A DNA stretch of 64,000 bases from Acetobacter indonesiensis. GTDB taxonomy: Bacteria > Pseudomonadota > Alphaproteobacteria > Acetobacterales > Acetobacteraceae. Positions 31,963 through 64,000 of the stretch are shown here, piece by piece (the first letter of the stretch is position 1; the number at the start of each line of letters is the position of its first letter). The stretch spans positions 1 to 64,000 of the forward strand of contig NZ_BAMW01000009.1 of the NCBI RefSeq assembly GCF_000963945.1, in the 5' to 3' direction. The notes beneath the pieces are model-generated. The model did no database searches. It saw nothing but the letters and a program-made list of their open reading frames with translations, and was not told the origin of the DNA. A program made the translations under genes and the position numbers.

Positions 31963-32096
31963 CTGATTTTTGCCGCCCTTATCGTCCTGTAGTGAGCCCC
32001 ATCAAGGCACATGATCACGTAATTTGTAATCGCTTCTTTACTTGAAGCAAGCGTCGAAAACTGGAGTGTTCTTTTTATTGGGTTGCACCTGATTGC

Positions 32097-35060
32097 TCAA
32101 CACAGATACTCCGGGTTTCGCGCTGGTACATCCAGAATGGTTTGAATGGTACGAACATAGGCTGCGGGTTCATTTTCAACCGCAACACGCCTGAGTTCAT
32201 TCCGGCGTATTTTCTGCCACAGTGTCCGGTCCTGATACAGGCTGACAACAGCATGGGCGAAAGCCGCGGCGTTTCCTGTTGCCGCCCCCAGCAGATCTTC
32301 CCCTGACTGCCAGCCAACCTGCTCACAAAGGATATCTGACGCCACAATCGGGATACCGTGCGCGGCGGCTTCATGCAGCTTGTAGGGAATACCGCCAGCA
32401 AACCGGGTGGGTGCTACAAACACACGGTGCGCGTTATAGTAAGGCGTCACATCTTCAACGCGCCCCACGACATCTACCCTTGGGTGAGCCAGAATTTTTT
32501 TCAGATCAATGTCAGGATTGGTGTAACCACAAATCCTGAATTTCACGTCTGGCGGCAAGTGGGGGTCAAACAGTGGCAGCACCTCATTCGCGAACCAGAT
32601 CAGGGAATCGAGGTTCGGCGAATCCCTGTCATGCACCGCCCCGACAAACAGGATATCCTGCCGTTCGGTAAAACCGGGTGTGAAGCGGTGCGCGGATTGC
32701 AAATGCCCCAGAACAGAGACGTCCTGATGCCCAAGGCGTCGCAGCGTTGTGGCATCTTTCTGGTTCACTGCCACCAGCTTCTGGGCGATGCCGGCCGAAC
32801 GAAATTCTTTTTGCAGCATTTCTTCAAGGGAGTGCTGAGGCTGCTCACCTTTCAGTGCCCATTTTTGTAATTCTCGGCCCGATGCCACGGCTTCCGTATC
32901 AAGCACGACGGAGCAGCCAGACAGCGCGCCCGCACATTCCGCCAATACCGGGGCCAGCCGCTCGGCATTATGGGTCCGCGCCACCCAAATGACATCATAA
33001 TAACCGGGGCGAGAGTTCAGAAAACCTGCCAGATCTTCCAGCCCTTTGTTCGCCACGATTTCGGCACGGTCAGGAAAGCCTGTGTAGGTATCATCCACCA
33101 TGCCCATTGGGCGGAATACGGGATAAACCGTAACGTGACAGCCCAGTGATTTGACCATAGCCGTAATCACGTCATTGGAGCGGGTGAAGCCGCTACCAAG
33201 ATGCCTGAACGGCAAAAAGTCTTCTATGAAAAGAACATTTTTTGTCGCTGGTACAGCCGAGCGCGCCCACAAATCCTGATGTGGGTTTCGTGCAGGGCGC
33301 GTTTCGATATAGGCCCGGTTTTTTTCTATGAATTTCTGCTGATTTACGACCATCATCTGGTTGCTTTCCAGCGTGCCAGATGTGCCATACTCGTAGTGAA
33401 CAACAACAACTGCCGGGTCATAGACAACATCTGCACCCTTTTGACGAATACGAACGCAGAGATCCGTTTCTTCAAAATAGGCAGGGGCATAGTCAGGATC
33501 AAACCCCGAAAGCTGACGCAGCAGGTCTGTACGCACCAGTAAAAACGCACCAGAGCAGAAATCTACTGACCGTACGTAATTGGCTTCCGGGCTATCTGGC
33601 ATGTGGTCACGCAGATAGCCGCAGACGCCGCCATCCCCCCAGATAATGCTGCCCGCTTCCTGCAAAAGACCGTTTGTACGCACCAGCTTGGCACCCACAG
33701 CCCCTGCATTCGGCTCCTTAGCAAACCGCGCCACGGCATTTTCCAAAGCGTTAGGCATCAGTTCGAGGTCATTATTCAGGTAGAGTGTAAAGTCTGCCTT
33801 CACATGGCCCAGAGCTTCATTACAGCCCATCAGGAACCCGACATTTCCTAAGGCCCGGATAACATCCAGCCCTTTTACAAAACGTTCAATATGGCGCGTT
33901 TCATCTGACGAGCCGGAATCAACAAGAATAACCTGAAGGCTACCGGCATAATTGGCACGTAAAGACGCCAGAGCCGACATGGTCATGGCAAAATTATTGT
34001 GCACAATTATAATAACGCTGATTTCTGGCTTTTCGTATGAAAAGTCCAGACCGCTGCGCAGCAATAGCGGCAACCGCACCCGGCACATGTCCTGATAAAC
34101 GCTTTTCGAGATATATTCCCGTTCATGCGCTGTATAACCAGTTTCTTCCACTATGCCGCCATGCGCTATGTAATGAACAAAAACACTTGGAAAAGTATGG
34201 GCTGCGATTTCGCTTTTTACTTTAGGATTTTCTGCATAAACGCGCAATTTCACGTCTTCGGCAGGTTGACGCAGTTCATACTGACCATTTTTTACAAAAT
34301 GCTCATAACAGTTTCTGAACGCCCCGTGCTTTACAGCATCTGCTACATCTTCATAGGCTTTTGCGTAAAACTGTTCTGAAAAATAGGCATTCGGATTGTA
34401 ATAGGTGGGTTTGGCATTCGCCAGATAATGGTGCAGCGGGCCATTCCAGAGAAACGCTTCCCTTTTTACTTCGGGGTAGGTTTCCAGATACCATTCAGGG
34501 TCAAAGTAAGGAGAAAACCGCCGCATCTGTAAGTCTGCATTCGGCAACGCCTTCAGCAGACTGATGTAGGGCCCATCGTCAACATTCACCACAAAGTCAG
34601 GCGCATCCGCCAGAAAAACGGCGGGGTCAAAAAATGGGGAAGACGCGCAGTGTAGCCGACCGCCCTGATTCAAATAATGATCATACCCGTTTCTGAAACC
34701 GTTTTCGGCCAGGGTTTCTATAGGGAAATCCAGAAAGTTCCGGCGATAATAATCCTCATCAAATAACCAATGCGGGTTACAGGACCAGAAACCGACTTTG
34801 CAGTAATGGTCAAAACCAGAAACGTAGTCACCCGCGGCAACGTGGTCCACCACCACGGGGTAGCGACTAATATACCAGGCTTCATCAAAAAACAGATTGG
34901 GAGAATGCTTGAGTGCAGGCCCGCGCGTTTCATAAAAACGGCGGATTTCTTCATCTGACTTTACATTAAAAAAAGAAAGAACAGGCTGATACCGCTTTTT
35001 GTACCATTCCAGGTCAAAAGCAGACCAGTCAAACTTTTTCCTGTTTTCAGACAAAGACAT
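32097..35060 (-). CDS. Bifunctional GT2-GT4 glycosyltransferase with N-terminal repeats
   Basis: A 987-residue protein. Residues about 12-275 hold five or so degenerate repeats of the form FDxxWYxxxYP..HY..G..P, for example FFDEAWYISRYP and YFDPEWYLETYPEV. Residues about 350-600 are a GT2 domain: PEISVIIIVHNN, LYLNNDLELMP (the DxD-like motif) and AYFEETDLCVRIRQKGADVVYDP. Residues about 660-975 are a GT4 domain with DILFVGAVHDRDSPN and GGIPYKLHEAAAHGIPIVASD. Both catalytic regions look complete, so it may add two sugars. The repeats are known from other large cell-surface glycosyltransferases but have no proven role. Confidence 0.8.
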   Translation of the reverse strand: MSLSENRKKFDWSAFDLEWYKKRYQPVLSFFNVKSDEEIRRFYETRGPALKHSPNLFFDEAWYISRYPVVVDHVAAGDYVSGFDHYCKVGFWSCNPHWLFDEDYYRRNFLDFPIETLAENGFRNGYDHYLNQGGRLHCASSPFFDPAVFLADAPDFVVNVDDGPYISLLKALPNADLQMRRFSPYFDPEWYLETYPEVKREAFLWNGPLHHYLANAKPTYYNPNAYFSEQFYAKAYEDVADAVKHGAFRNCYEHFVKNGQYELRQPAEDVKLRVYAENPKVKSEIAAHTFPSVFVHYIAHGGIVEETGYTAHEREYISKSVYQDMCRVRLPLLLRSGLDFSYEKPEISVIIIVHNNFAMTMSALASLRANYAGSLQVILVDSGSSDETRHIERFVKGLDVIRALGNVGFLMGCNEALGHVKADFTLYLNNDLELMPNALENAVARFAKEPNAGAVGAKLVRTNGLLQEAGSIIWGDGGVCGYLRDHMPDSPEANYVRSVDFCSGAFLLVRTDLLRQLSGFDPDYAPAYFEETDLCVRIRQKGADVVYDPAVVVVHYEYGTSGTLESNQMMVVNQQKFIEKNRAYIETRPARNPHQDLWARSAVPATKNVLFIEDFLPFRHLGSGFTRSNDVITAMVKSLGCHVTVYPVFRPMGMVDDTYTGFPDRAEIVANKGLEDLAGFLNSRPGYYDVIWVARTHNAERLAPVLAECAGALSGCSVVLDTEAVASGRELQKWALKGEQPQHSLEEMLQKEFRSAGIAQKLVAVNQKDATTLRRLGHQDVSVLGHLQSAHRFTPGFTERQDILFVGAVHDRDSPNLDSLIWFANEVLPLFDPHLPPDVKFRICGYTNPDIDLKKILAHPRVDVVGRVEDVTPYYNAHRVFVAPTRFAGGIPYKLHEAAAHGIPIVASDILCEQVGWQSGEDLLGAATGNAAAFAHAVVSLYQDRTLWQKIRRNELRRVAVENEPAAYVRTIQTILDVPARNPEYLC

Positions 35061-35158
35061 CCCTGTATTCCACGCTTACACTTACAGTATGATCCACCAT
35101 CATTCCGTTTTACTGGCAGCGATGAGGGTCTGTTCGCTTGAGTGAGACTGCAAACTGG

Positions 35159-35189
35159 CCGGCCACAGGGCACGTAACCCTATGGCCGG
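35159..35189 (-). terminator. Hairpin between two glycosyltransferase genes
   Basis: CCGGCCACAGGG (35159-35170) pairs with CCCTATGGCCGG (35178-35189) with one mismatch and a 7-base loop. It lies 13 bases past the stop of the CgeB-like gene on the minus strand. Only a short T tract follows, so partial termination or mRNA 3' processing is likely. Confidence 0.45.
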
Positions 35190-35201
35190 ACGAACTGCTT
35201 G

Positions 35202-36263
35202 TCAGGCCATGAATCCTTGTTCATGCAGAACACGGACCACATCCTGAATACGGTTGCCATACGTGTGTTCCGCCAGGGTTCTTTCCTGCGCTCGCCGGGT
35301 GGCTTCTGCCCGTTTTTCAGGGTTAGGCAGATACTCTTCCACTAATTTATCAAAGTCGCGCTTGTTGGAAAAAGTCGGGATTTCGTCAGCGTTGAAATAA
35401 CGACGCAGTTCATACGTGTCTTCATGAAATACCTGAAACGCGCCGGCAGCAGCGGCTTCAAATGTGCGCGGCCCCGGGGTGGAAGGGGAAATCATGAAAC
35501 GCTTGTTTTCAAAATGAAGGGACCGGCCCAGATTGAGCACCATTTTGGAACGTTGATACAGTTCGACCAACTGATGCTTTTCAATACGCGCATCAGAAAA
35601 GCCGATACCAAATTCGCCCCAACCCGGACCGATGATACGCACATTCAACTTACGCAGAGACGGCATAAGCGTGCGCACAATGTCCTTACGGCTGGTAAAC
35701 GCAACACCACAGAACAGAACGTCAATCGTTCTGTCCGCTTCACCCGTCAGCGGGGCGTAGTGCAGTTTGCGGCTGGCGGCCAGAGGCAGATGGAAGACTT
35801 TGTCACGCAGGTAGAAATTATGCCCCCAGCGGTCGCAGGAGAAAACAATGTCAAAATCGTCTGAAATGCGATAGTTCGCATCCTGTTCGTAGGGGTCTTC
35901 TGTTGCCCAGAAAACGGTGGAGGCCCCTATTTTTTTGGCTTCACGGCAGACTTCGCCAAAATATGTGCTTTCGGGAAGGTAGGACCCAATAGCAAACACA
36001 ATGGTAGGCTTCAGGCGCGCAACAGAGGCCGCCGCACCGCTGATATGAACAGCGGTCACATTTTCCTCACCAAAGCATTCTGCCCACCCATCCATGATGG
36101 ATTCACGAATCTGGGCATTTGCCTGAGATTCATACCGTCCACCACTACACACCAGAACCCGCTGATCTTTACCAAACTGGGCCAAAACCGCGCTTTTCTC
36201 TTTGAGAGCTGCCATAAAATTGTCCGTGCGTTCCAAAATTTGTGTAATGCAAACTATAGCCAA
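35202..36263 (-). CDS. CgeB-family glycosyltransferase
   Basis: A 353-residue protein whose middle and end match the CgeB/glycosyl-transferase-1-2 family: VLFCGVAFTSRKDIVRTL, then NVRIIGPGWGEFG, and PSTPGPRTFEAAAAGAFQVFHED, the donor-binding block. The N-terminal module of the 1120-residue protein belongs to the same family, suggesting duplication and fusion. The start is uncertain: TTG at 36263 or ATG at 36215, neither with a strong ribosome-binding site. It is the first gene of the island and lies after an AT-rich intergenic stretch. Confidence 0.8.
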   Translation of the reverse strand: MAIVCITQILERTDNFMAALKEKSAVLAQFGKDQRVLVCSGGRYESQANAQIRESIMDGWAECFGEENVTAVHISGAAASVARLKPTIVFAIGSYLPESTYFGEVCREAKKIGASTVFWATEDPYEQDANYRISDDFDIVFSCDRWGHNFYLRDKVFHLPLAASRKLHYAPLTGEADRTIDVLFCGVAFTSRKDIVRTLMPSLRKLNVRIIGPGWGEFGIGFSDARIEKHQLVELYQRSKMVLNLGRSLHFENKRFMISPSTPGPRTFEAAAAGAFQVFHEDTYELRRYFNADEIPTFSNKRDFDKLVEEYLPNPEKRAEATRRAQERTLAEHTYGNRIQDVVRVLHEQGFMA

Positions 36264-51452: not shown

Positions 51453-53762
51453 ATGATGATCACGCTCCTTAACCCACGCCGGGTTCCGGCATGGGCGTGG
51501 GTTATTGCCACCGCCTGCGTGGCCCCATACACCCCCCATGCGCTCGGCCAGACTGCCAGCCAGACCAGTGCCCCGACCAGCAGCCAGACGTCTGGGCAAA
51601 CCACTGCACAGACCAGTGCCCCCGGTGGAGTTACCACTCAGGTTGCCAGCGCACAGACTTCCGGCTCCTCCCACCCGGTCAGCAGCCCTGTTGTTACCCT
51701 GCCCCGACTGGATATTTCGACCAGCGAGGAAGAAGAAACGTCCCTGTCTGACGCGCCGCTGACAGCGTCCTCGCCCGATGCCAGTTCCCTGCGGATGTCA
51801 CGCCTTTCAAGCCCGGATGCGTCTTCGCTGTTCCGCAACCAGCCCGGTTTCAGTTCCTATGGTGGTGGCAGATTGGCTAATCTGCCCGTCTTGAACGGTA
51901 TGGCAGATGATCGTGTGGCGACCATTGTGGACGGTGTGCGCATTGCCCCCGCCTGCCCCAACCACATGAACCCGGCCCTGTCTTACATAGACCCCGACAG
52001 CGTAAAAACGGCCACCAGCATTGCAGGGCTAACGCCCGTCAGCACCGGGGGCGACAGCATTGGCGGCACCATAGACGTTGAACGTGCTGACCCACGCTTT
52101 GCCCGCAAGGGGAAGATACTGGTAACCGGCCGGGTGCGTGGCACCTATCGCAGCAACGGCGCAGGCTATGGTGCGTCCGGGGCCATGACGGTCGCCAACC
52201 ATCTGCTGAGTATCCGCTACGAAGCATCTTACGATCAGTCGAGCAATTATCAGGGCGGCGCAGGCATGGGTACCGTCCATTCCACCAGCTACCTGACATA
52301 TAATCACGCTGTGACAGTGGGCTTGCACAAGGACAACCATCTGCTGTCTGTCACCGTGGGGCAGCAGGACACCCCGCGTGAGGCCTTTGCCAACCAGTAT
52401 ATGGACATGACCAACAACCGCTCCACCTTTGTGAACGGGAAATATACTGGCTCATTCGACTGGGGCGAGCTTGAGGCCCGTGGTTACTGGCAGCGCATTA
52501 CGCATGCCATGGACATGCTGGCAGACAAAGGGGGCCATTCCGCCACCACCGGTATGCCCATGAACAATGATTCCCGGCTGGCTGGCTATTCCTTGAAAGC
52601 AACCATTCCGCTGGCCCCGGCGCATACGCTCAAACTGGGCAGCAGCTTTGACCATGCCGGCCTGAATGACTGGTGGCCCGCCCTGCAGGGCAGCATGATG
52701 ATGGGGCCGAATACCTATCACAACATCAATAATGGCCACCGTGACAGGCTGGGTCATTACGCTGAATGGGAAGCCCACTGGACGCCCCGTGTCTCGACCC
52801 TGCTGGGCTTCCGGAATGACCTGATCATGATGAACACCGGCGATGTGGCCCCGTATTCCTGGACCGGCATGATGAACATGACCGACGCCATGGCCGCCCG
52901 CGCCTTCAACGCCCGCAACCGTGGCCGCACGGATGTGAACTTTGATGTTACCGCCATGGCCCGCTGGCAGATGACCGATAGCCTTACGATAGAGGGCGGA
53001 TATGCCCGGAAGTCACGCGCACCCAATCTGTATGAACGCTATGCGTGGGGGATGGGCAGCATGTCATCCAGCATGATTGGCTGGTTTGGCGATGGTAACG
53101 GCTATGTGGGCAACATGGATCTGAAGTCTGAAATTGCCAACACCGCCAGCTTTACCCTCGACTGGCACGACCCCACGGCAGCAGGCCGATGGGGGCTGAA
53201 GGTGCAGCCCTATTACAGCTACATCCATAATTACATTAACGTGGTTCAGTTGCGCACGTTCACCAACGGGCACCACCTGCTGCAATTTGCCAACCATAAT
53301 GCGCAGACCTACGGCATTAACGCATCCGGCCACTATACATTGTGGAACACCCCACGCTTTGGCAAAGGTGAGGTAACCGGTGTGCTGAACTGGGTACGTG
53401 GGCAGGATGATGTCACGCATTCCGGCCTGTACCATATGATGCCCCTGAACGGCACCGTGGCCGTGCATGAAACCGTCGGCCCATGGACCGGCCGCGTGGA
53501 AATGAACTTCGTCAAACCCAAGGACACGGTGGACTGGCTGCGCGGCGAACCCCGCACTGCCGGGTATGCGCTGCTCAACCTTGGGGGCAGCTATATATGG
53601 AAAATGCTGACGCTGGATGCAGGCATCGATAACGTGCTGAACCAGCCGTACTATCTGCCTTTGGGTGGTCTCTCACTGGGGGATACGCGCTATATCGGCA
53701 CCACCCGCGCCCTGCCGGGCATGGGCCGGTCTTTCAACCTGAGCCTGTCAGCGTCATTTTAG
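51453..53762 (+). CDS. TonB-dependent outer-membrane receptor, OprC/copper type
   Basis: A 769-residue receptor with a signal peptide (about 1-32), a Gln/Thr/Ser-rich linker, a plug domain (about 85-250) and a 22-stranded barrel ending in SASF. The plug contains APACPNHMNPALSYIDP, a Cys/His/Met block diagnostic of the OprC/NosA copper receptor group. Met and His are frequent in the barrel (for example GSMMMGPNTYHNINNGH and MSSSMIGW). Such receptors import copper, and NosA supports nitrous oxide reductase in some bacteria. The adjacent tonB and DUF2946 genes fit metal uptake. The C-terminal Phe is the usual barrel-assembly signal. Confidence 0.88.
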   Translation: MMITLLNPRRVPAWAWVIATACVAPYTPHALGQTASQTSAPTSSQTSGQTTAQTSAPGGVTTQVASAQTSGSSHPVSSPVVTLPRLDISTSEEEETSLSDAPLTASSPDASSLRMSRLSSPDASSLFRNQPGFSSYGGGRLANLPVLNGMADDRVATIVDGVRIAPACPNHMNPALSYIDPDSVKTATSIAGLTPVSTGGDSIGGTIDVERADPRFARKGKILVTGRVRGTYRSNGAGYGASGAMTVANHLLSIRYEASYDQSSNYQGGAGMGTVHSTSYLTYNHAVTVGLHKDNHLLSVTVGQQDTPREAFANQYMDMTNNRSTFVNGKYTGSFDWGELEARGYWQRITHAMDMLADKGGHSATTGMPMNNDSRLAGYSLKATIPLAPAHTLKLGSSFDHAGLNDWWPALQGSMMMGPNTYHNINNGHRDRLGHYAEWEAHWTPRVSTLLGFRNDLIMMNTGDVAPYSWTGMMNMTDAMAARAFNARNRGRTDVNFDVTAMARWQMTDSLTIEGGYARKSRAPNLYERYAWGMGSMSSSMIGWFGDGNGYVGNMDLKSEIANTASFTLDWHDPTAAGRWGLKVQPYYSYIHNYINVVQLRTFTNGHHLLQFANHNAQTYGINASGHYTLWNTPRFGKGEVTGVLNWVRGQDDVTHSGLYHMMPLNGTVAVHETVGPWTGRVEMNFVKPKDTVDWLRGEPRTAGYALLNLGGSYIWKMLTLDAGIDNVLNQPYYLPLGGLSLGDTRYIGTTRALPGMGRSFNLSLSASF

Positions 53763-53823: not shown

Positions 53824-55002
53824 CTAGACGGCAGGGGCGCTATTTTTTGCGTTCTGAATGCAGTCTTCCACTACAGAAACGACCTGTTCGGCTGAAATAC
53901 CAATCGAACATTCGAACTCCCGCGGCGTATCTTTATGCCGTGGGCACCAGAAATAATCACTGACATCAAGCTGGCACCGGATGTCGTTTGAGCAGCTATT
54001 GCACAGGTGCCTGTTAATCACACGCCATGGGGTGGAGAATTCGTTCCGCTCGGCAGTGAAACCACTGATCATGACAACGGGCGTTTCCATTGCCCAGGCC
54101 AGCCATGACAATCCGCTTGAAAGCCCGACAAAAAAATCGGCATGTTTCAACCACATGGCGCGCTCTGACAACGGCCTGTTACCCGTTTCATCTTCCGCGC
54201 CATGGGGCATATAATGCCAGACACGCCCCTGACCCGTGACAGGCTTCTGGTCAATGCAGATAACCCTATAACCACGGTTTTTCAGATACTGGACCAGCCT
54301 GATCCATCCATCCGGATTGTTCCAGTATTTACAATGGCTTGAGGCCTGCGTGGCCAGACAGACATATGGCTCGGCAATTGGTCTGACAGAAGGAGGAATA
54401 GACAGAGAGGGCCGGCGTTCAATAAGCGGTAGCCCCAGAATATAAGGGGCAGACAGCGCCAGCCCCGCTTCCCTGTAGTCAACCGGGCTGTGATCAAGCC
54501 CTTCATCATTATAGAAAACCAGCACTTTGTAGGACGCGTAGAATGGCTCTTCCATTCTGACGTTACCGGGGCGGAATTCTATTTCAGGGTAGCTTTCACG
54601 GAACAAGGCCAGCAGATCTGGCCGTATCTGACAAAAAACCCGGCACTGGTGCCTCCTGCGGAAAAATTCGACATGCTCGATCCACGCAAGATGATCACCC
54701 AGACCGCCCTGCCCCATTTTAATGGCGACAATCTGGCCCGTCAGATCAAATTCATGCCTGAAAATATGCTCGTCATTTTTCCAGATATCGACAGCAAAGC
54801 GCACAAAATACCGCTTACGGGTCTGCACTGTACCGCCTTGCAGCACATGTCGGTAGATAAGTGTTTTGGTGTCCAGATCCCAGATATCAACCCGCCACTG
54901 GTCGCCTGCGGGGAAAAAGATTCGGGCGCCATCATTGAAGTCAAATCTTATCCCACACGGGCCTTCCTGCGTGGGGATTGTATCTGGATCATCCGGGTTC
55001 AT
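53824..55002 (-). CDS. Autotransporter O-heptosyltransferase-like glycosyltransferase (BAHT family)
   Basis: A 392-residue GT9-fold enzyme. It matches TibC/Aah-type heptosyltransferases, which transfer heptose from ADP-heptose to Ser/Thr of strand-loop-strand autotransporters. Visible features are GQGGLGDHLAW (about 97-107; the acidic residue is D103), GLSSGLSWLAWA in the donor site and a C-terminal Cys-rich finger: C334, C337, C353 and C365 (with C343) in HLCNSC, FWCPRHKDTPREFEC. In this family four cysteines hold an iron atom. No autotransporter gene is nearby. It is the last gene of the PKS operon, 19 bases after the FAAL. A role in glycosylating the PKS product or a surface protein is open. 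Confidence 0.8.
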   Translation of the reverse strand: MNPDDPDTIPTQEGPCGIRFDFNDGARIFFPAGDQWRVDIWDLDTKTLIYRHVLQGGTVQTRKRYFVRFAVDIWKNDEHIFRHEFDLTGQIVAIKMGQGGLGDHLAWIEHVEFFRRRHQCRVFCQIRPDLLALFRESYPEIEFRPGNVRMEEPFYASYKVLVFYNDEGLDHSPVDYREAGLALSAPYILGLPLIERRPSLSIPPSVRPIAEPYVCLATQASSHCKYWNNPDGWIRLVQYLKNRGYRVICIDQKPVTGQGRVWHYMPHGAEDETGNRPLSERAMWLKHADFFVGLSSGLSWLAWAMETPVVMISGFTAERNEFSTPWRVINRHLCNSCSNDIRCQLDVSDYFWCPRHKDTPREFECSIGISAEQVVSVVEDCIQNAKNSAPAV

Positions 55003-55021
55003 GCTGGGCTGTTCTTCTTCA

Positions 55022-56809
55022 TCAATGCTTTTCCTGCTTTATAATCCGAAAGCCCTGCGCAGAACGAGGGAGAATTTCCATCTCTCTTAAAATGGTTTTC
55101 GGGTTTTCAAGCAGAAAGGCCTTGGTATCCTTGATCATGATTTTCCCGCTTGGGGTTCGGTTCAAGGCTGAAGGACTTACAAAATAGACATATCCCTTTT
55201 GTATTCTGAATTTGTCGTACAGGACATCCTGAATATCCTGAAAGACATCGGCGGCATGACTCAAGGCATCATGCGGCACGCCACATACAAAGACGGGCAC
55301 CGGGTCAATGTCACCCTGTAAAAAGACTGTCGCATTATGTTGCGACACATAAGACGTCTTTTCAGACACGGAAAAAACCAGATCTTCAGGGTCTATGGCA
55401 AACCCGTTAAGGACGATTTCGTTATTTTTTCGTCCCGTAAGAAACAACTCATCTTCCACGAAAAAACCTTTGTCGCCCGTGGCAAGATAGTCTTTCCCTT
55501 GATAGCAGAAATGTGTGGGCGTTTCAGAACCATAGCCGCAATAGCCGACAGCCACACCCGGCCCGTGGATATAGATAAGCCCTTCCTCCATTTCCGATGC
55601 ACGTGAAAGCGCGGCCTCGTTTTTGATAATGACAACGTCCGTATCCGCTATCACCTTCCCACAGGACACCAGCACACGGTCATCGGCTGGGTTATCTGTC
55701 GTTTCTACAGTGCCGACCAAAAGCGCCTGCCGCGAAAATGACTGGGCAATCCGTTCCGTGCCGCGCGGTTTGGCAGAGACCAGCAATGTTGCCTCGGCCA
55801 AGCCATAACAGGGGCAGAACGCAGCATCCCGAAAGCCATAAGCCGAAAACTTTTCAACAAAGCGATCCAGCATATCCTTGCCAATGGCCTCAGAACCAAT
55901 AAACGCCTGATCCCAGCAGGAAAGATCGAGTTCTGTCACTGACTCATCAACTGCGTTCAGGCACATTTCATAAGCAAAGCCCGGGCCACCGGAAAGAGTT
56001 GCCTTATACGTGCTGATGGCATGCAACCAGTTAAGCGGTTTTTCCAAAAACTTTTCGGGCGGCAGCAGCACGCATTGCCCACCCGCACCAATGGCCATTA
56101 GAACAGAGCCCATCAAGCCCATATCATGCGACAAAGGCAGCCAACTTACGCCGACATCTCCGCGCGCGTAGCCAAGCTCTTCCCCCTGTTGGGTCAGATT
56201 AAAGATAATGTTCCGGTTGGTAAGAATAACGCCTTTCGGAATATTGGTAGATCCAGACGTATATTGAATCAGGGCGTCCTGTTCATTGTCACGCGGGGCG
56301 TAAAAATAGCCTTGCCCTTTTTCAGACAGTTCAACCGGAATCCACGCTATTTTCAGGTTTTCAGACGCACATTCTTTCTGAAACACGGACAGTACATTTT
56401 TACAGCCCACAACAGCAACGGCCTGACTATCACGCGCAATATGGCAGAACCGTTGCCTGCTGCCAAAATCAGTTGGATATACGCCCGAAACTGGAATAAC
56501 CCCTGCATACAGGCAACCAAACAGGCCTATCAGGTAATCAGGCCCGTTTTCAAACAACAACACAACGCGCTGCCCCGGCTGAACAAGCTTGCTTAACCAA
56601 GATGCCAGACAGCCTGCCTGCTTATCCAGACTCTGCGCGGTCAGTCGCGCTGTCGGGTTTCGACCATCCCCCAGAAACGTCAGAATTTCCAGATTCGGGT
56701 TCTTTGTGGCTCGGTAACGACATCCTTCCGCTACAGACCCTTTGCGCCAGTCGATAATCTCTTCATTCTGAACACCGCGTGTTGACTGAAAAGCGTTTGC
56801 CATCGTCAT
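55022..56809 (-). CDS. Fatty-acyl-AMP ligase (FAAL)
   Basis: A 595-residue adenylating enzyme. It has the P-loop YTSGSTNIPKG, the FAAL-type WLPLSHDMGLMG, the aromatic A-site YGLAEATLLVS and the C-terminal lysine region LNRTPSGKIM, with the catalytic lysine present. The sequence resembles FAALs rather than CoA ligases, which activate fatty acids and load them onto an acyl carrier protein. The gene overlaps the PKS stop by 4 bases (ATGA), so the two are translationally coupled. It probably supplies the starter fatty acid to the PKS. The start is ATG at 56809; an ATG two codons later is also possible. Confidence 0.85.
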   Translation of the reverse strand: MTMANAFQSTRGVQNEEIIDWRKGSVAEGCRYRATKNPNLEILTFLGDGRNPTARLTAQSLDKQAGCLASWLSKLVQPGQRVVLLFENGPDYLIGLFGCLYAGVIPVSGVYPTDFGSRQRFCHIARDSQAVAVVGCKNVLSVFQKECASENLKIAWIPVELSEKGQGYFYAPRDNEQDALIQYTSGSTNIPKGVILTNRNIIFNLTQQGEELGYARGDVGVSWLPLSHDMGLMGSVLMAIGAGGQCVLLPPEKFLEKPLNWLHAISTYKATLSGGPGFAYEMCLNAVDESVTELDLSCWDQAFIGSEAIGKDMLDRFVEKFSAYGFRDAAFCPCYGLAEATLLVSAKPRGTERIAQSFSRQALLVGTVETTDNPADDRVLVSCGKVIADTDVVIIKNEAALSRASEMEEGLIYIHGPGVAVGYCGYGSETPTHFCYQGKDYLATGDKGFFVEDELFLTGRKNNEIVLNGFAIDPEDLVFSVSEKTSYVSQHNATVFLQGDIDPVPVFVCGVPHDALSHAADVFQDIQDVLYDKFRIQKGYVYFVSPSALNRTPSGKIMIKDTKAFLLENPKTILREMEILPRSAQGFRIIKQEKH

Positions 56810-59800
56810 TCGTCCTCGGGGCTCATGGTAGAGAGTTTGGTTTGTATCTGGCTATAAAACTTCTTGGCCAGACTACGGATACTGTCATCTTTCGCCAGCA
56901 TCATAGCCGAAACTTCCACCCCGAATTCAACCCGGATACCAGTTTGCAGTTCAACCCCGGCCAAGGAATCTAACCCCAGTTCCGACAATCTGGCGTTATC
57001 TTCAATCGTGTCTTCCTGCAAATGCAGGGTTTTGGCGATAATTGATTTCAGTCGTTCAACAATAAAATCCTGCCTGTTTTCTTCTGGCAGGTTCAGCAAT
57101 GACAGCATTGTTTCACTGGTGGCCTCCAATGCGCCCACCAGATGATGCATGGCCGTAAAGCGCGAGAGATCCGCAACCAGCGGAACAACGCGAAACCATT
57201 TTTCCCAGTCAATATCTGCCACGGTAATCTGCGGCCAGCGTTGTTCCATCACATCTGGCAGGAAGCGTAGAACCTCATGAATATCCAACAGGTTCATGCC
57301 AGCATTCCGCAACGCATCGACTGCAACCTGATTGCGTGCCAGAATACCAACACCCTCCACCGGGCCCAGATTGAGTGACAACCCGGCAAGGTTCAGCCCC
57401 CGCCTGTTTTCACATATCTGATTCAGAACCTCATTCGCGGCAATATAAACACTTTGCCCGATATTGCCCGTCATGGTGGTCACTGACGAGAACAGAACAA
57501 AGAATTCAAGCGGCATGTGGCGTGTCAACGCATCCAGATGGGACGCGCCAACGGCCTTTGCCGCAAACCCGGTTTTCAAACGCTCTGGGGTGATATTCTC
57601 CAGCAGAGCATCATCGAACACGCAGGCACAATGGAACACCCCTTTAAGAACAGGCAGCTTTTTTCCAAATTCAGAAAGGCAAAGTTTCAGGCTATCTTTG
57701 TCTGTGATGTCAAAATAACGCTCCTCGACCGTACAGCCAGCATCCCGCCAGACCTGAAGCCTGTTCAGAACCACGTCATTGTCGGTTTTCTTACGACCGG
57801 TCAAAACCAGATGTGTCGCGCCAGAGGCAATCAACCACTCTGCAATTTCCAGACCAAGACCACCAAAACCACCGGTAACCAGATAAGCGCCTTCAGCGTC
57901 AATGTGCGGTCGGGGTGGCAGTTTTTCTTTCCCGACAACATCGGTCAGATCGGTATAATCTATCACAACTTTACCGATATGTTTGGCACTGGAAAGATAG
58001 CGGAAGGCATCAACCGTTTTACCGGCGGGATACACCGTTGACGGTAAGGGGTGAATGGAGCCATCGCCAATCATGCTGGCCATAGCGCCAAGGATGTCTT
58101 TAATAAGCTGTGGTTTTTCGTTCAGAAGGCGGTCAAGATCAACCGAGAAGAACGAGATATTTTCGTTAAAGACGCGCATGGCCAGAGAGCCATTTTCAAT
58201 AATGTCTCTTTTGCCAATTTCCACAAACCGTCCCAGAGAAGCAACACTGGCAAGACTGGCGGCCTGTGCCTCACCCGACAGGGAGTTGAGGACAACATCT
58301 ACGCCTCGGCCTTGGGTCAGATTACGAATTTCATCAGCAAACGCCAATGTGCGGGATGACCATACATGCGCACAGCCAAGATTACGGAGATAGTCTCTTT
58401 TTTCTTCCGTTCCGGCTGTTGCAAAGACCGTTGCGCCAAGCATTTTAGCGACCTGAATGGCAGCAAGCCCCACGCCACCACTGGCAGAATGGATTAGTAC
58501 CGTTTCACCAGCTTGCAACCGCGCCAGATGAGACAGGCCATACCATGCGGTCAGAAACGCAACCGGCAGCGTCGCGGCATCCGGGGCAGAAAGGGACGCA
58601 GGTTTTTCTATTGCAAAAAGTGTATCGGCTTTCACGGTAAAGGATGTTGCAAAGCAATCCGCCGCCGCGACAATGTAGTCCTTCCCCTTTACAAAATGTT
58701 CAACGCCAGCGCCAACATCCAGAATACGCACGACCGCTTCCATACCCAGCGCGTGGCCGTAGAAAGTGCCTTCAACCACACTATCAGGCAGAAGGTTCAT
58801 GGCTTTTAGAACATCTTTGAAATTCAGTGCTGATGCCAGAACCTGACAGGAAACTTCACCTGCTGATGGTTTCCGTATTTTACTAGCTTCATAATACAGT
58901 TTTTCTAAAGACCCGGTGTCGGATACTTTAAGAACAGCAGACAGATCCGTGCGCCCGGCAAGCGGAAGTGATGTTGTATTATCATTCTTCAGCGATGTTG
59001 GCACAACGCGAGCAACAAAGCGCTCCCCGCCTCGCAGAAGGACATGGTCTTCAGAATCATCCTGAATAAGTTCTGCGCCAATACTTTCCAAAACGGCTTC
59101 TGCACCGTTCGTCTCAACCTCGATAATTTTTACGCGCAAGTCTGAACGCTCAAGCTCCATGCCGCGCGCAAAGCCGCGAAGAGCAGACTGGGCCAGAGAA
59201 ACACCCTGCCCCACGGCTGTAACAACACAAAAACGCGGCGAGGCTTCTTCAGCAGAAAGATGTGTTATCGCCTGAACGCACGCCAGAAGCTGCCCAACAT
59301 CGACTATCTGGCTGGCATCACTTCCTAGAGGACTGAAAAATACTATCGCTTTGTAGTCATTAAACGTGGTGTCTTTAAACGCTTCCTCAAAAAAGGATCG
59401 ATTATATTCACCGGGCAGCAAAACTGTATCAACTGTCAGAAGATATTGCTCTGACACTGCTTTAAAGGCGTCAATCTGATCTGCATCACCCACAGCAAGA
59501 ATAGTTTGGGGGTCAACCAGAAGGGGTAAGGTTTCTGCTTTTTTCCACGTTGTTTTATAAAGAAGGTTTTCAAATTTCTTCTTTCTTGTAACGCGAGGAA
59601 CCGCTTTACAAACCAATTTATCAATACTGAGCACAATATGACCTTCATCGTCATAAAGGTGCACATCAGCAACAAGCTGCTTTGACGAAATTGCCCCCAC
59701 GCTGACAATTGCCGTCAGTTCAGCACATTTCTGTCCATGATAGATCAGACGTTCCGCACTGACGGGCACGTAAGCATAATCGTTATCTGGATTATGTTCA

Positions 59801-62800
59801 AAAACCGCTGCGGCGATCAGTTGAAACGCGCCATCAAGCAAAGCTGGATGGACAGCATAGTCTTCGCTCTGGATAGCGCGTTCAGGGGTTAGGCTTAACT
59901 TTGCCCACAGCCCTTCTGGCACTGTCGCAATGTCTTCCACAACCTGAAACTGTTCCCCATATTGCAGACCATTCTGGGCAAGTGTTGTATAAAATTCATT
60001 TTTATCGAATGTTTTTACGACAACCGGAGAAAAAACCTTACGGCCTTCTACTGGCCAAGGGGCCGACGTCAGAACTTCTACACGAACATGATTGCGCCAG
60101 AGTGGATCACTATCATCATCCCCTCGGGTTAGGGTGCTTCCCTCCAGTTTTCCCGTCTGGGCATTATAAGACCACTCAACATCGCAATTTGTTTTTTCTT
60201 CAATCAGAATAGGGGAATAAATCTCAAAATTCCGCAATATAGCCTGATGCGTACCATGCACCTGAAAATGCACAGCCAATGCGGCTTCCATATAGGCGGC
60301 TGCCGGGAAAATAACATTGCTTTCAATCTGGTGGTCAGGAAGCCAAGGCAGATAGTTCTGATTGATTGTTGCCCGCCAGCGAGGCGTAGCAGACACCATT
60401 GGCAACCCTAGCAGCGGATGCACAATCAGCCCTAAACGATCGGCTGCGGCTTCCTGACATTCAGACCAGTAATACTCCCGGTGCCAAGCGTAATACGGGA
60501 TCGCCACACGCTGGCCGCCAGTCATACGCAGCCAGTCTAGCGGCGCACCGGCTATTGCCAGCCGTGCCAGACAGAGTTCTGCCCAATGCATACCGACGTC
60601 ATTTCGACGCAGCGAATGAACTGTCTGAATCTGGATATCAGATTTTGAGATAATTTCTTTTACAGAAGGCAGTAGAACAGGATGAGCGCCGACCTCCAGA
60701 ATTACCTGACTGTCTATTTCTTGCAGTATATGTGAAACCGCTTTAAAAAACTCTACCGGCTGGCGGGAGTTCTGATACCAGTAGTGCGCATCATGCCGAA
60801 CGTTATCATCCCATTTTTCGCCCGTAACCGTTGAATAAAGGGGAAAAACCGGCTGTATGGGGTGAATATCAGCCAGCATTTTATGCATGTCAGACTGAAT
60901 AGTTTCCATCAATGCGCTATGGTAAGGCACCTCAACATTCAGCAAACGTACGAACACATCCTGCTTGCTGTAATGATCTTCAACCTTTTTCAGATCCTCT
61001 TCCGCACCAGACAACGTGCAGGATTTCAGACTATTTACAGCTGCAACAGACACGCTCAATGCGTGCTTCTGTATGAATTCTTCAACCTTTTCTCGTTCAG
61101 CACCGACAGCCAGCATTGTGCCAGAGCCTGCCAAACGCGCCTGAAGCTGACTGCGCACATAAATAACACGCACGGTGTCTTCAAGCGTTAATGCCCCGGC
61201 ACAATACGCCGCAGCCACTTCCCCCACACTGTGGCCGACAATAGCTGACGGCGAAACACCATATGCCGCAAGAGTTTTGAAAATCAGAATTTCCAGAAGG
61301 CAAATAGCTGGCTGGGCTATTTCCGTTTTATGAACGGAGAAATCAGCATTCTCCTCGCTTGTCAAAACAGTTAGAAGAGACCAGCCTGAAAGCTTCCGGA
61401 ATGTGGCGTCAAATGCCTCTGCCACAGGCTGCACGTCAGGGGGTAGCGTAGACAGAATAGTTTTTCCCATTCCCTCCCACTGCGACCCCATGCCGGAAAA
61501 AATCATAACAGGGCCAAGCTTTGGCGCAACAAAGCTGCGACCAATTACAACTGACTGGTTCTGCTTCCCTGTTTTCAGATCAGCAAGGTTCTGAATCATC
61601 TCGTCCCGGCTGTCTGCCAGAATGACGGCCCTGTGCTGAAACCACGTTCTGTAGGCGCCAGCCGAATAGCAAACATCATGCAGATCAACAGTCGTATCAT
61701 TCTGCAAAAATGCACTATAGGCTTCTGCTGCTTTGGCCAGACCTTTTTCATGCGTTGAAGAGAGCGGCAGAAGATAGGTTTTTACGGCAGGCTTTCCCCT
61801 GCTTTTGCGGCTGACAGGGGCAGCTTCGTCTTTCTGGGGCGAGCGCATGATCACCATGCTGTTTGTGCCACCATAGCCAAACGAATTTACACCTGCATAT
61901 AAAACAGATTTTTCAGAAGGCAGCGGAACATTGTTCCCTTTGGGGATGTGAAGGTTCCATTTTTCACATTCAATATTCGGGTTGATATCTTCAAGATTAA
62001 CTTGCGCAGGGACTTCCCGATGTTCCAAACAAAGAAGCGTTTTCAACACCCCCGCGACACCTGCTGCGGCTTCCAGATGGCCTATATTCGCCTTAACCGA
62101 CCCTATTACCAGCGGGGCTTGCCCCTGCTTGCTCTGCGCTATTGCGCTGCCAATCGCTGCGGTTTCTATCGGATCACCAACTGGCGTGCCGGTACCATGC
62201 GCTTCCACATAATCTAGATCCTGACCAGTCAGGTCACTTCTGTGGAGAACATCTTTGATCAGGGCTTCCTGCGCTGCGCCGTTAGGCACAGTAATCGCCG
62301 TTCCTCTGCCATCATGATTGACGCCACTTTTACAAATGACCCCAAGAATAGGATCCTTTGCCGCAACCGCGTCTTCCAACCGCTTGATCAACAGAAGGGC
62401 TGCGCCCTCACCACGGCCATAACCATCGGCATCTGATGAAAAGCTTTTTGACCGCCCATCTTTTGCCAGAAAATGCCCACGCGACATTGGCATGGCACCC
62501 TGTGGGTTAATAACGAAATTAACGCCACCAGCCAAAGCAATGTCACACTCACCATTGCTCAGACTAAGGCACGCATTGTGAATAGCCACCAAAGAAGAGG
62601 AACACGCCGTGTCTATGGTCAGACATGGTCCACAAAGCCCGAAAACGTGCGCCAGCCGTGCAGAGAGCATGGTGGCAGAGGCGGCTGTTGTTGAGAAATG
62701 GTCTTTAATGGAGTCCCGGTTGAGCGCGCTTCCACAATAGACCAGCCAATCGAGCGAGAAAGAGCCAACAAAGACGCCCGTATTGCTACCGTTCATCCGC

Positions 62801-63141
62801 CCCGGAATAATACCGGCGCTTTCAAAAGCCTCCCACGCGACTTCAAGTAAAAGCCGCTGCTGCACGTCCATCAGAGTTGCTTCACGCGGGGAAATGCCGA
62901 AAACCTGCGGTTCGAAATACCCGAGTTCCTGTGTCAGGAACGAACCGCGCCGCATGTAGGTTTTGCCCGGCGTTTCGTAGCCGGGATCATAATAACGGTC
63001 GATGCTCCAGCGGTCTTTAGGCACCTCACGGCTAGCATCCTGACCGCTATTCAGAAAATCCCAAAACTCTTTTAATGTTGTTATATTTTCTGGAAAACGA
63101 AGGCCTGTACCAATAATGGCGAATTCTTGTTTTTTGTTCAC
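56806..63141 (-). CDS. Highly reducing type I polyketide synthase (KS-AT-DH-ER-KR-ACP)
   Basis: A 2111-residue multi-domain synthase. GTG at 63141 is preferred to TTG at 63153 because GAGGT lies about 7 bases upstream. Domains: KS (about 10-430; C180 in DTACSSS, His in EAHGTGT and NIGHLE), AT (about 545-850; S638 in GHSVGE, specificity block VPYHS), DH (about 910-1190; H937 in DHQIESNVIFP and D1103 in LLDGAF), an inactive-looking structural KR part (about 1220-1440), ER (about 1450-1760; SASGGVGLAAIQVAK), KR (about 1790-1970; TGGFGGLG and Tyr in GQSVYIAAN) and ACP (about 2030-2090; S2059 in LGLDSL). There is no methyltransferase and no thioesterase. In DH the usual Gly of HxxxGxxxxP is Ser. 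It presumably extends a fatty acid iteratively with full reduction. Confidence 0.92.
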   Translation of the reverse strand: MNKKQEFAIIGTGLRFPENITTLKEFWDFLNSGQDASREVPKDRWSIDRYYDPGYETPGKTYMRRGSFLTQELGYFEPQVFGISPREATLMDVQQRLLLEVAWEAFESAGIIPGRMNGSNTGVFVGSFSLDWLVYCGSALNRDSIKDHFSTTAASATMLSARLAHVFGLCGPCLTIDTACSSSLVAIHNACLSLSNGECDIALAGGVNFVINPQGAMPMSRGHFLAKDGRSKSFSSDADGYGRGEGAALLLIKRLEDAVAAKDPILGVICKSGVNHDGRGTAITVPNGAAQEALIKDVLHRSDLTGQDLDYVEAHGTGTPVGDPIETAAIGSAIAQSKQGQAPLVIGSVKANIGHLEAAAGVAGVLKTLLCLEHREVPAQVNLEDINPNIECEKWNLHIPKGNNVPLPSEKSVLYAGVNSFGYGGTNSMVIMRSPQKDEAAPVSRKSRGKPAVKTYLLPLSSTHEKGLAKAAEAYSAFLQNDTTVDLHDVCYSAGAYRTWFQHRAVILADSRDEMIQNLADLKTGKQNQSVVIGRSFVAPKLGPVMIFSGMGSQWEGMGKTILSTLPPDVQPVAEAFDATFRKLSGWSLLTVLTSEENADFSVHKTEIAQPAICLLEILIFKTLAAYGVSPSAIVGHSVGEVAAAYCAGALTLEDTVRVIYVRSQLQARLAGSGTMLAVGAEREKVEEFIQKHALSVSVAAVNSLKSCTLSGAEEDLKKVEDHYSKQDVFVRLLNVEVPYHSALMETIQSDMHKMLADIHPIQPVFPLYSTVTGEKWDDNVRHDAHYWYQNSRQPVEFFKAVSHILQEIDSQVILEVGAHPVLLPSVKEIISKSDIQIQTVHSLRRNDVGMHWAELCLARLAIAGAPLDWLRMTGGQRVAIPYYAWHREYYWSECQEAAADRLGLIVHPLLGLPMVSATPRWRATINQNYLPWLPDHQIESNVIFPAAAYMEAALAVHFQVHGTHQAILRNFEIYSPILIEEKTNCDVEWSYNAQTGKLEGSTLTRGDDDSDPLWRNHVRVEVLTSAPWPVEGRKVFSPVVVKTFDKNEFYTTLAQNGLQYGEQFQVVEDIATVPEGLWAKLSLTPERAIQSEDYAVHPALLDGAFQLIAAAVFEHNPDNDYAYVPVSAERLIYHGQKCAELTAIVSVGAISSKQLVADVHLYDDEGHIVLSIDKLVCKAVPRVTRKKKFENLLYKTTWKKAETLPLLVDPQTILAVGDADQIDAFKAVSEQYLLTVDTVLLPGEYNRSFFEEAFKDTTFNDYKAIVFFSPLGSDASQIVDVGQLLACVQAITHLSAEEASPRFCVVTAVGQGVSLAQSALRGFARGMELERSDLRVKIIEVETNGAEAVLESIGAELIQDDSEDHVLLRGGERFVARVVPTSLKNDNTTSLPLAGRTDLSAVLKVSDTGSLEKLYYEASKIRKPSAGEVSCQVLASALNFKDVLKAMNLLPDSVVEGTFYGHALGMEAVVRILDVGAGVEHFVKGKDYIVAAADCFATSFTVKADTLFAIEKPASLSAPDAATLPVAFLTAWYGLSHLARLQAGETVLIHSASGGVGLAAIQVAKMLGATVFATAGTEEKRDYLRNLGCAHVWSSRTLAFADEIRNLTQGRGVDVVLNSLSGEAQAASLASVASLGRFVEIGKRDIIENGSLAMRVFNENISFFSVDLDRLLNEKPQLIKDILGAMASMIGDGSIHPLPSTVYPAGKTVDAFRYLSSAKHIGKVVIDYTDLTDVVGKEKLPPRPHIDAEGAYLVTGGFGGLGLEIAEWLIASGATHLVLTGRKKTDNDVVLNRLQVWRDAGCTVEERYFDITDKDSLKLCLSEFGKKLPVLKGVFHCACVFDDALLENITPERLKTGFAAKAVGASHLDALTRHMPLEFFVLFSSVTTMTGNIGQSVYIAANEVLNQICENRRGLNLAGLSLNLGPVEGVGILARNQVAVDALRNAGMNLLDIHEVLRFLPDVMEQRWPQITVADIDWEKWFRVVPLVADLSRFTAMHHLVGALEATSETMLSLLNLPEENRQDFIVERLKSIIAKTLHLQEDTIEDNARLSELGLDSLAGVELQTGIRVEFGVEVSAMMLAKDDSIRSLAKKFYSQIQTKLSTMSPEDE

Positions 63142-63189
63142 GTCAGACCTCAAATTTCCGATAGACAGAAAGATAGTTTCAGATTTTCC

Positions 63190-64000
63190 TTATTTCTGAC
63201 GACTACGGAGAATACCATTTGTCAGAAAATCACGATCGGGTTCGCCATCACTACGGTATGGAATTCGATCGACCCAGATCAGGGTTACTGGTGGTAAGTT
63301 TTCATATTTTTCATGAAGTTTGGCACCCAACGCAGCACCATCCAGTTCAACGTGACAAACGATCGCGGCCCATGGTGTAAGCACGCCATTATCATCTGGA
63401 ACAGAGAATGTGCAGGCGTCTTGTATGCCCGGATATGTTTTGCAAATCTGGTCGAGCAGGCGCAGATCAAACTTGTCTCCGCCGAAGGACGCCAGAGAGT
63501 CAGTACGGCCTGTTATGAAAATCTCATTTTTATCGTTTAAAAATCCAATGTCACCGGGATAAAACCAGCCATTTTTAAAATGGTTATTTGCGCCCAATTC
63601 AGTATCAAGATAGCTTTTTATAACTGTATTACCGCTTACTCTCACGCGCCCTTCTGTTTTGAGCGGAAGGACTTTGTCGGACTCATCAACAATTTCGACG
63701 TTCATCCACGGCAGAATTGCTCCTGCACTTTTAGGATCTGACAGATGATCGCTTTTTTTAACGGCAATAACACCGGCCTCTTCCGTGCCATATAAAATAT
63801 GGATTTTCTTTGTCAGCTTTGCTTTCGTCTTTGTTTCCAGTTCAACAGGAAGACGCCCACCCACCACAATGATTTCAATAGTCTCTTGTGGCATGGAAAC
63901 GGGAGAAAGTGACGAGAGAATATATTCCAAATGAAGCGGAGAAAGCACCAAAACAATTGGTTTATGCTGCGCGACAGCTAACGCAATTTGGGTACGATCA
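63190..64000 (-). CDS. ANL-superfamily acyl-adenylate/CoA-ligase-like enzyme, N-terminus outside window
   Basis: The frame is open through position 64000, so the N-terminal half is missing. The visible 265 or so residues include a VVGGRLP-like strand, ILYGTEEAGV (A5-like), GWFYPGDIGF (A7), ITGRTDSLASFGGDKF (A8) and a small C-terminal domain. The A10 position, where CoA ligases and FAALs have Gly-Lys, reads SDGEPDRDF: Lys is replaced by Glu. This argues against normal adenylation, while thioester formation or another transfer is possible. It is the first visible gene of the PKS operon, 48 bases before the PKS start. The neighbouring FAAL keeps its lysine. Confidence 0.7.
   Translation of the reverse strand, partial: DRTQIALAVAQHKPIVLVLSPLHLEYILSSLSPVSMPQETIEIIVVGGRLPVELETKTKAKLTKKIHILYGTEEAGVIAVKKSDHLSDPKSAGAILPWMNVEIVDESDKVLPLKTEGRVRVSGNTVIKSYLDTELGANNHFKNGWFYPGDIGFLNDKNEIFITGRTDSLASFGGDKFDLRLLDQICKTYPGIQDACTFSVPDDNGVLTPWAAIVCHVELDGAALGAKLHEKYENLPPVTLIWVDRIPYRSDGEPDRDFLTNGILRSRQK

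Follow-up and report, generated by a model that had tools for sequence, protein, structure and literature searches.

Several systems described earlier resemble parts of a gene cluster that runs off the end of a 64,000-nucleotide stretch of Acetobacter indonesiensis (RefSeq assembly GCF_000963945.1, contig NZ_BAMW01000009.1, positions 1 to 64,000 of the forward strand; hereafter the window). The closest are the 'beta-group' type-1 polyketide synthase (PKS) clusters of acetic acid bacteria, in which a PKS is accompanied by flanking acyl ligases and an O-heptosyltransferase, and in Asaia by Hint proteins, and for which, in Acetobacter, Gluconobacter, Asaia and Bombella, a specialised metabolite is expected (PMC8776678). 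A conserved type-1 PKS (T1PKS) cluster of Bombella apis with two adenylation domains has been proposed as an antifungal candidate; the antifungal spent medium of B. apis resists protease and heat, and the PKS was not shown to be the cause (PMC8262860). The T1PKS was present in every Bombella genome of a further study, and other acetic acid bacteria have it too, a wide distribution that argues against a role specific to bee symbiosis (PMC9147383). Heptosyltransferases of the TibC family modify TibA and AIDA-I, on protein repeats (PMC4358343).

The A. indonesiensis cluster shares the beta-group gene content, and directly upstream of an ANL-superfamily protein without adenylation motifs it has a gene for a repeat protein with a Hint domain. 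The reading that we prefer, at a probability of about 0.5, is that the cluster is a cassette for lipid and heptose modification of this Hint adhesin, and does not make a free metabolite. The cluster itself is not new: the original prediction, made from the window alone, did not recognise the combination, which PMC8776678 does describe, although the gene order has been characterised only to the extent of a genome survey. The wide linkage to Hint genes, the motif-less ANL protein and a hairpin between the two go beyond the papers examined, and the open-access literature searched yielded neither a proposal of lipid modification of Hint adhesins nor an experiment on the product of the cluster. The features of the locus are as follows.

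53824-55002, minus strand: BAHT-type (Aah/TibC) O-heptosyltransferase, 392 residues, TIGR04414 profile match
55022-56809, minus strand: fatty acyl-AMP ligase (FAAL), 595 residues, AMP-binding domain, FAAL-type structural relatives
56806-63153, minus strand: single-module highly reducing PKS (KS-AT-DH-ER-KR-ACP), 2115 residues, Pfam domains and active-site motifs
63190-64647 (the window ends at 64000), minus strand: ANL-superfamily protein, 485 residues, Pfam AMP-binding, predicted non-adenylating
Within contig 64648-64735, the gap between the Hint and ANL genes, beyond the window: terminator-like hairpin
Contig 64736-67816, minus strand, beyond the window: AIDA-repeat/Hint_2 protein, 1026 residues, by Pfam; candidate substrate

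In the direction of transcription the order is thus Hint adhesin, ANL, PKS, FAAL, BAHT. The four minus-strand genes of the original prediction are real, with open reading frames, profiles and gaps in agreement, and it named all four enzymes correctly, as judged from Pfam, NCBIfam and structural relatives; extension past position 64000, on a contig that continues to 79,017 in a genome of 3.41 Mb, completed the ANL gene and added one more gene on the same strand, that of the Hint/AIDA-repeat protein. The BAHT and FAAL genes are separated by 19 bases, the FAAL and PKS genes overlap by 4 bases, and the PKS and ANL genes are 36 bases apart if the TTG chosen by the tool is the start, or the 48 bases given previously if a GTG four codons further downstream is. 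The Hint gene lies 88 bases upstream of the ANL gene, both on the minus strand, and 379 bases upstream of the Hint gene is an aldehyde dehydrogenase gene (by sequence) on the same strand. Because of this spacing and of the strong, terminator-like hairpin in the gap between the Hint and ANL genes, co-transcription is well supported only for ANL-PKS-FAAL-BAHT.

The enzymes of the cluster differ in the state of their motifs, which are kept in FAAL, PKS and BAHT and lost in the ANL protein. The motif tally covers 18 of 32 cluster ANLs and uses the motif names and roles (A7/A8 and others) customary for the superfamily: the A10 lysine is lost in 18/18 (replaced by arginine in five), as is the full P-loop motif (SSGTTGxPK), with a lysine at the lysine position of the loop in two, and both the A10 lysine and the P-loop are kept in all five PKS-free relatives, one of which reads SSGSTG. 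Cluster ANLs retain the Asp and Arg of the A7/A8 motifs plus the A8 stretch GRxDxLxxxGGxK, and the closest solved structures are ordinary adenylating enzymes. The ANL protein looks, from its sequence, like a dead adenylase retained for another task, so that, in contrast to the beta-group account, one of the two 'acyl ligases' here lacks adenylation motifs.

FAAL, by comparison, has the A10 lysine in 11/11 aligned sequences and keeps the A3 loop, whose lysine position holds K or R. Its closest solved structures are 7r7f (a chain annotated as PKS, 276 bits), 3kxw and entries of Fatty Acyl-Adenylate Ligase/FadD32 type; fatty acyl-AMP ligase models are among its top-ranked NCBIfam matches, but none scores above its own cut-off. 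The Pfam domain order of the PKS is KS, AT, DH, ER, KR, PP-binding, with no thioesterase at E<=0.001, and motifs of KS, DH, ER, KR and ACP are found in 11/11 aligned PKSs and that of AT in 10/11 (G116 is without an aligned AT motif). FAAL adjoins a reducing PKS also in mycobacterial systems of the Pks2 type, and the PKS scores 1138 bits with the NCBIfam Pks2 model over residues 11-2103, where 2400 bits would be needed to pass. In mycobacteria PapA carries out release; no PapA-type acyltransferase was noted here, and no search was directed at one. The domain order and the lack of a thioesterase are those of the beta-group PKSs, and the closest PKSs found come from the genera listed in PMC8776678.

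BAHT passes the equivalog model TIGR04414 with 564 bits (cut-off 200) and matches the TibC structure 4rap with 344 bits (E 6e-102). Residues aligned to D110, K230 and the iron-finger Cys 339/342/358/370 of TibC, the catalytic and iron-finger residues given in PMC4358343, are all present, and all six are kept in 15/15 aligned BAHTs from 9 of the 11 genomes read, a count that leaves aside the copies of G085 and G136 (one of them broken). In the latter genome the first BAHT gene (L085, G136:C1 1742501-1743660) is split into two reading frames.

The putative substrate of the heptosyltransferase matches Hint_2 (PF13403) at residues 676-816 of its 1026 residues (115 bits) and the AIDA stalk over its whole length (45 bits, no single stretch passing alone). 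Pfam gives only these two domains at E<=0.001 and no autotransporter barrel, and a classic type V autotransporter adhesin like AIDA-I was rejected as an identification for want of a C-terminal barrel match. Similar to the described pairs of TibC/Aah with TibA and AIDA-I, an AIDA-repeat protein is encoded near the heptosyltransferase, but here it has a Hint domain and no barrel match, and genes of a lipid pathway accompany it.

Across 22 aligned Hint regions there is no variation in Cys1 (C41) or in the Thr, Glu and His of TPEH (T122, E124 and H125); one of these regions belongs to a second Hint protein of the window that is not linked to the cluster; the Hint pair of G116 reads TAEH instead of TPEH. 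A model of the A. senegalensis Hint domain has the Hint fold, with matches to the bacterial intein-like (BIL) structure 2lwy (Z 14.3, root-mean-square deviation 2.2, 119 residues aligned) and to the hedgehog autoprocessing structure 1at0 (Z 11.4, root-mean-square deviation 2.8, 118 residues aligned), and its Cys41, in the first aligned residues, falls at hedgehog residue 258. Hedgehog is not set apart by the fold alone, since many inteins match the model equally well. After the Hint domain comes a separate C-terminal domain, modelled at pLDDT 82, for which neither Pfam (two weak rows at chance level appear up to E 10) nor a Foldseek search of the PDB gave a match at E<=0.001; VIA yields weak resemblances, the best being Hikeshi (Z 6.9) and dextranase (Z 6.5), and the domain may still have a known fold. 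It occurs also in Hint proteins unlinked to a PKS. The second Hint protein of the window (2602-4464, minus strand, 620 residues) has the same C-terminal domain. Altogether the A. indonesiensis genome has 16 Hint_2 matches.

Many clusters have a hairpin with a T run between the Hint and ANL genes, of a sequence that varies between lineages. When 30 shuffles were made of each of 19 gaps, none reached the hairpin in 11 gaps and one or two did so in four (L117, L121, L122 and L128); the hairpin is not above chance in the other four (L124, L132, L137 and L139). The hairpin fits read-through that would yield much adhesin and little enzyme, and it fits two separate transcripts equally well.

Among 200 Acetobacteraceae genomes drawn, 154 have Hint genes, 55 have BAHT above cut-off and 15 have a PKS of this type. 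Thirteen of the 15 PKSs score above 1000 bits; those of G029 and G116, which align only over about residues 863-2101 with 524-527 bits (other PKSs of the family reach 611 bits over residues 10-1186), were counted by their neighbourhood. BAHT is above cut-off in all 15 genomes with a cluster-type PKS versus 55/200 overall, a comparison whose P value ignores relatedness, so that PKS and glycosyltransferase do co-occur; their failure to do so had been named in the original prediction as grounds for abandoning it. Gene order was read in ten of the 15 (the read-out is incomplete for part of G149 and G085), and a joint search for the four proteins, which had also been proposed there, found the set to recur: all ten clusters include FAAL, BAHT and ANL, with ANL and PKS as immediate neighbours in nine and a Hint gene between them in G116.

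The cluster contains a Hint gene in eight of the ten genomes read for order. Within 20 kb of the PKS there is a Hint gene in 12 of 16 genomes (the 15 plus A. indonesiensis), where random placement predicts 1.7 (P ~6e-10); counted by genus, which handles relatedness only in part, the linkage holds in 6/8 (P ~3e-5). Chance does not explain this linkage. Two genomes, G136 and G061, have a single Hint match each, and it is located in the cluster; the four genomes without a cluster Hint gene have others at different sites, and these group with the cluster Hints of G136 and G061 (support 93, quick tree). The idea that PKS-linked Hints form one special clade was rejected on a quick tree of 80 rows with SH-aLRT support only. 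Three successive Hint genes lie upstream of the PKS in G029 (C1 1515747-1524418).

Named species come from a further search, in which the ANL alignment was run against one genome per species and the best 80 of the 214 relatives found were retained. Among these 80 loci 32 have the PKS, all of them from Acetobacteraceae: A. senegalensis, A. nitrogenifigens, A. sacchari, Gluconobacter frateurii and G. thailandicus, and further Asaia spp., Swaminathania, Bombella spp. including B. apis MRM1, Saccharibacter floricola and relatives, and Commensalibacter spp. FAAL accompanies the PKS in 31 of the 32 (the exception, L139, is on a contig that begins inside BAHT) and BAHT in 30; L119, L123 and L132 have a PKS with a broken or split reading frame. 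A Hint gene is directly upstream of ANL in 20 of the 31 testable loci, one further locus being at a contig edge. Thus, whereas the section of PMC8776678 in question names Hint proteins for Asaia only, a Hint gene adjoins ANL also in Acetobacter, Gluconobacter, Swaminathania, Commensalibacter and ESL0709. Asaia and Swaminathania have a rearranged order, with FAAL, BAHT, BAHT and a glycosyltransferase (GT) divergent from Hint, Hint, ANL and PKS, and the same set is together. Many loci of the Bombella, Saccharibacter and Asaia types have an extra GT4-like gene. The order in B. apis MRM1 (L111) and Saccharibacter floricola (L115) is GT-ANL-PKS-FAAL-BAHT; these loci differ in that no Hint gene was found in about 10 kb upstream or in the downstream stretch examined. 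L111 is very likely the antifungal candidate cluster of PMC8262860, and the two adenylation domains noted there would be ANL and FAAL.

Of the 48 loci without the PKS, two from metagenome-assembled genomes of Acidisphaera (L140:6305-10582 and L141:2254-8006) have ANL beside a Hint gene, one of them also with BAHT. No PKS is in either stretch, the adenylation motifs of ANL are kept, and the Hint proteins do not match the C-terminal domain found in acetic acid bacteria. The other 46, several of them on short contigs, gave no Hint match at E<=1e-10. As a control, 20 BAHT loci outside PKS clusters were fetched with 13-20 kb each (a non-random choice, mostly of the best-scoring, with three stretches shortened by contig ends), and a Hint gene is present in seven; Hint plus BAHT is therefore the more widespread combination, with the lipid genes as an addition to it.

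The AIDA-repeat/Hint protein is the likely substrate; BAHT belongs to the TibC family, and the adhesin carries AIDA repeats. Between the two products that the original prediction had offered, the lipid-modified glycoprotein is favoured and the glycosylated long-chain lipid becomes a rival. From heptosylation and acyl product to acceptor, order of steps, expression ratio and export, we infer the following. The Hint-domain repeat protein would be made first and, owing to the terminator-like hairpin downstream of its gene, in excess, and BAHT would O-heptosylate its repeats. FAAL would turn a fatty acid into acyl-AMP and prime the PKS, which would extend the primed chain to a long and largely reduced one. 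The chain would leave the PKS without thioesterase release, the non-adenylating ANL protein helping its hand-over to the adhesin; since there is no thioesterase and a motif-less ANL protein has been retained, hand-over to the adhesin or its sugars would be the simplest end-point. The acceptor may be the adhesin polypeptide, its heptoses or a C-terminus opened by Hint, and the adhesin, now bearing lipid and heptose, would be retained at the cell surface.

Several observations weigh against this reading. There is no Hint gene beside ANL in 11 of the 31 testable loci, and cluster-linked Hints fall in more than one clade. BAHT is absent beside FAAL in A. senegalensis and in one Asaia prunellae cluster, both of which have BAHT elsewhere in the genome. 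The family-wide counts (Hint 154/200, BAHT 55/200, PKS 15/200) indicate that Hint and BAHT can do without the lipid, and three genomes in the draw that belong to the genus of the window, Acetobacter, lack the cluster-type PKS. The hairpin may part the adhesin from the enzyme genes, and the arginine at A10 in 5/18 ANLs and the loop lysine in 2/18 leave room for residual activity. No protein acyltransferase was identified. Finally, an antifungal Bombella medium that resists protease and heat fits a free metabolite (PMC8262860).

A free specialised metabolite is indeed the main rival, though we consider it doubtful. FAAL and PKS would then make a secreted reduced polyketide, for example an antifungal, and Hint and BAHT would have a role of their own, as befits two genes that are common without a cluster-type PKS. 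This is how the clusters have been read in PMC8262860 (antifungal candidate) and PMC8776678 (specialised-metabolite clusters), and the B. apis MRM1 locus that very likely corresponds to the former comes from a species whose spent medium is protease- and heat-resistant. A linkage of Hint and BAHT far above chance is not what this rival leads one to expect, and the broad distribution reported in PMC9147383 argues against a bee-symbiosis-specific role. If the adhesin reading is true, bee-protection experiments on Bombella should look elsewhere than this cluster.

It is unlikely that neighbourhood is all there is, that is, that ANL-PKS-FAAL was placed once in a surface-protein locus and has been inherited there with no functional coupling. 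Hint genes are abundant, and the site itself may be inherited, as a TonB-receptor flank is common to Saccharibacter/Bombella-type loci (57-61%); but the same gene set has stayed together in Asaia and Swaminathania through a rearranged order, and an ANL that keeps its motifs stands beside Hint in the PKS-free Acidisphaera stretches.

A hedgehog-like lipidation deserves separate mention, even if we hold it to be rather improbable. A Hint thioester at the C-terminus of the heptosylated passenger would be attacked by a nucleophilic group of the PKS lipid, presented by ANL or ACP; the polyketide lipid would then anchor the adhesin, and its C-terminal part would be discarded. In common with hedgehog and BIL domains there are the Hint fold of the model, the Cys1 aligned to hedgehog residue 258 and the TPEH motif. 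Unlike in hedgehog, no sterol-recognition region was recognised here, the attachment of lipid is a proposal only, and most Hint-bearing genomes of the family are without a cluster-type PKS; because Hint is found in 154/200 and the PKS in 15/200, such an attachment would mean that a domain serving maturation in general had been put to a special purpose. If true, it would be a bacterial protein lipidation distinct from that of lipobox lipoproteins and with a dedicated lipid synthase, and the pairing of Hint with a private lipid synthase is a concrete place to ask about hedgehog-like protein anchoring in bacteria.

Very improbable, finally, is a surface glycolipid unrelated to the adhesin, formed by a heptosyltransferase that sugar-coats the PKS chain: PKS, FAAL and glycosyltransferase do lie in a single unit, and many loci of the Bombella, Saccharibacter and Asaia types add a GT4-like gene, but BAHT passes the equivalog model with the TibC catalytic and iron-finger residues in 15/15, TibC acts on protein repeats (PMC4358343), and a Hint gene is near 7/20 BAHT loci outside PKS clusters.

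The Hint linkage, the motif-less ANL protein and the hairpin make a testable case for a surface-protein role of the cluster, and the retained motif-less ANL protein in itself is a test case for the roles of non-adenylating members of the ANL superfamily.

The G+C content of the cluster is 0.44-0.53 by gene, compared with 0.547 in the rest of the contig. A TonB-dependent receptor gene (window 51453-53762, plus strand) adjoins the BAHT end of the cluster, and a TonB receptor of 57-61% identity also adjoins the cluster in G158, G136, G061 and G170 (Saccharibacter/Bombella-type), which suggests the same ancestral site. Because this flank is common to those loci, the low G+C content was not taken to prove that the cluster arrived recently from a foreign source. 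Among the clusters compared, the nearest is that of A. senegalensis (PKS 65%, ANL 62% and FAAL 60% identical). The PKS identity of 65% (to L108) contrasts with 90% for DNA polymerase I of the same species, over the 656-residue piece found; the cluster either diverges fast or was swapped between species. Elsewhere in the window, a low-GC stretch at 28600-36263 (minus strand) has three successive glycosyltransferase genes with GT4/GT2-type domains (1120, 987 and 353 residues), and is perhaps a surface-polysaccharide locus.

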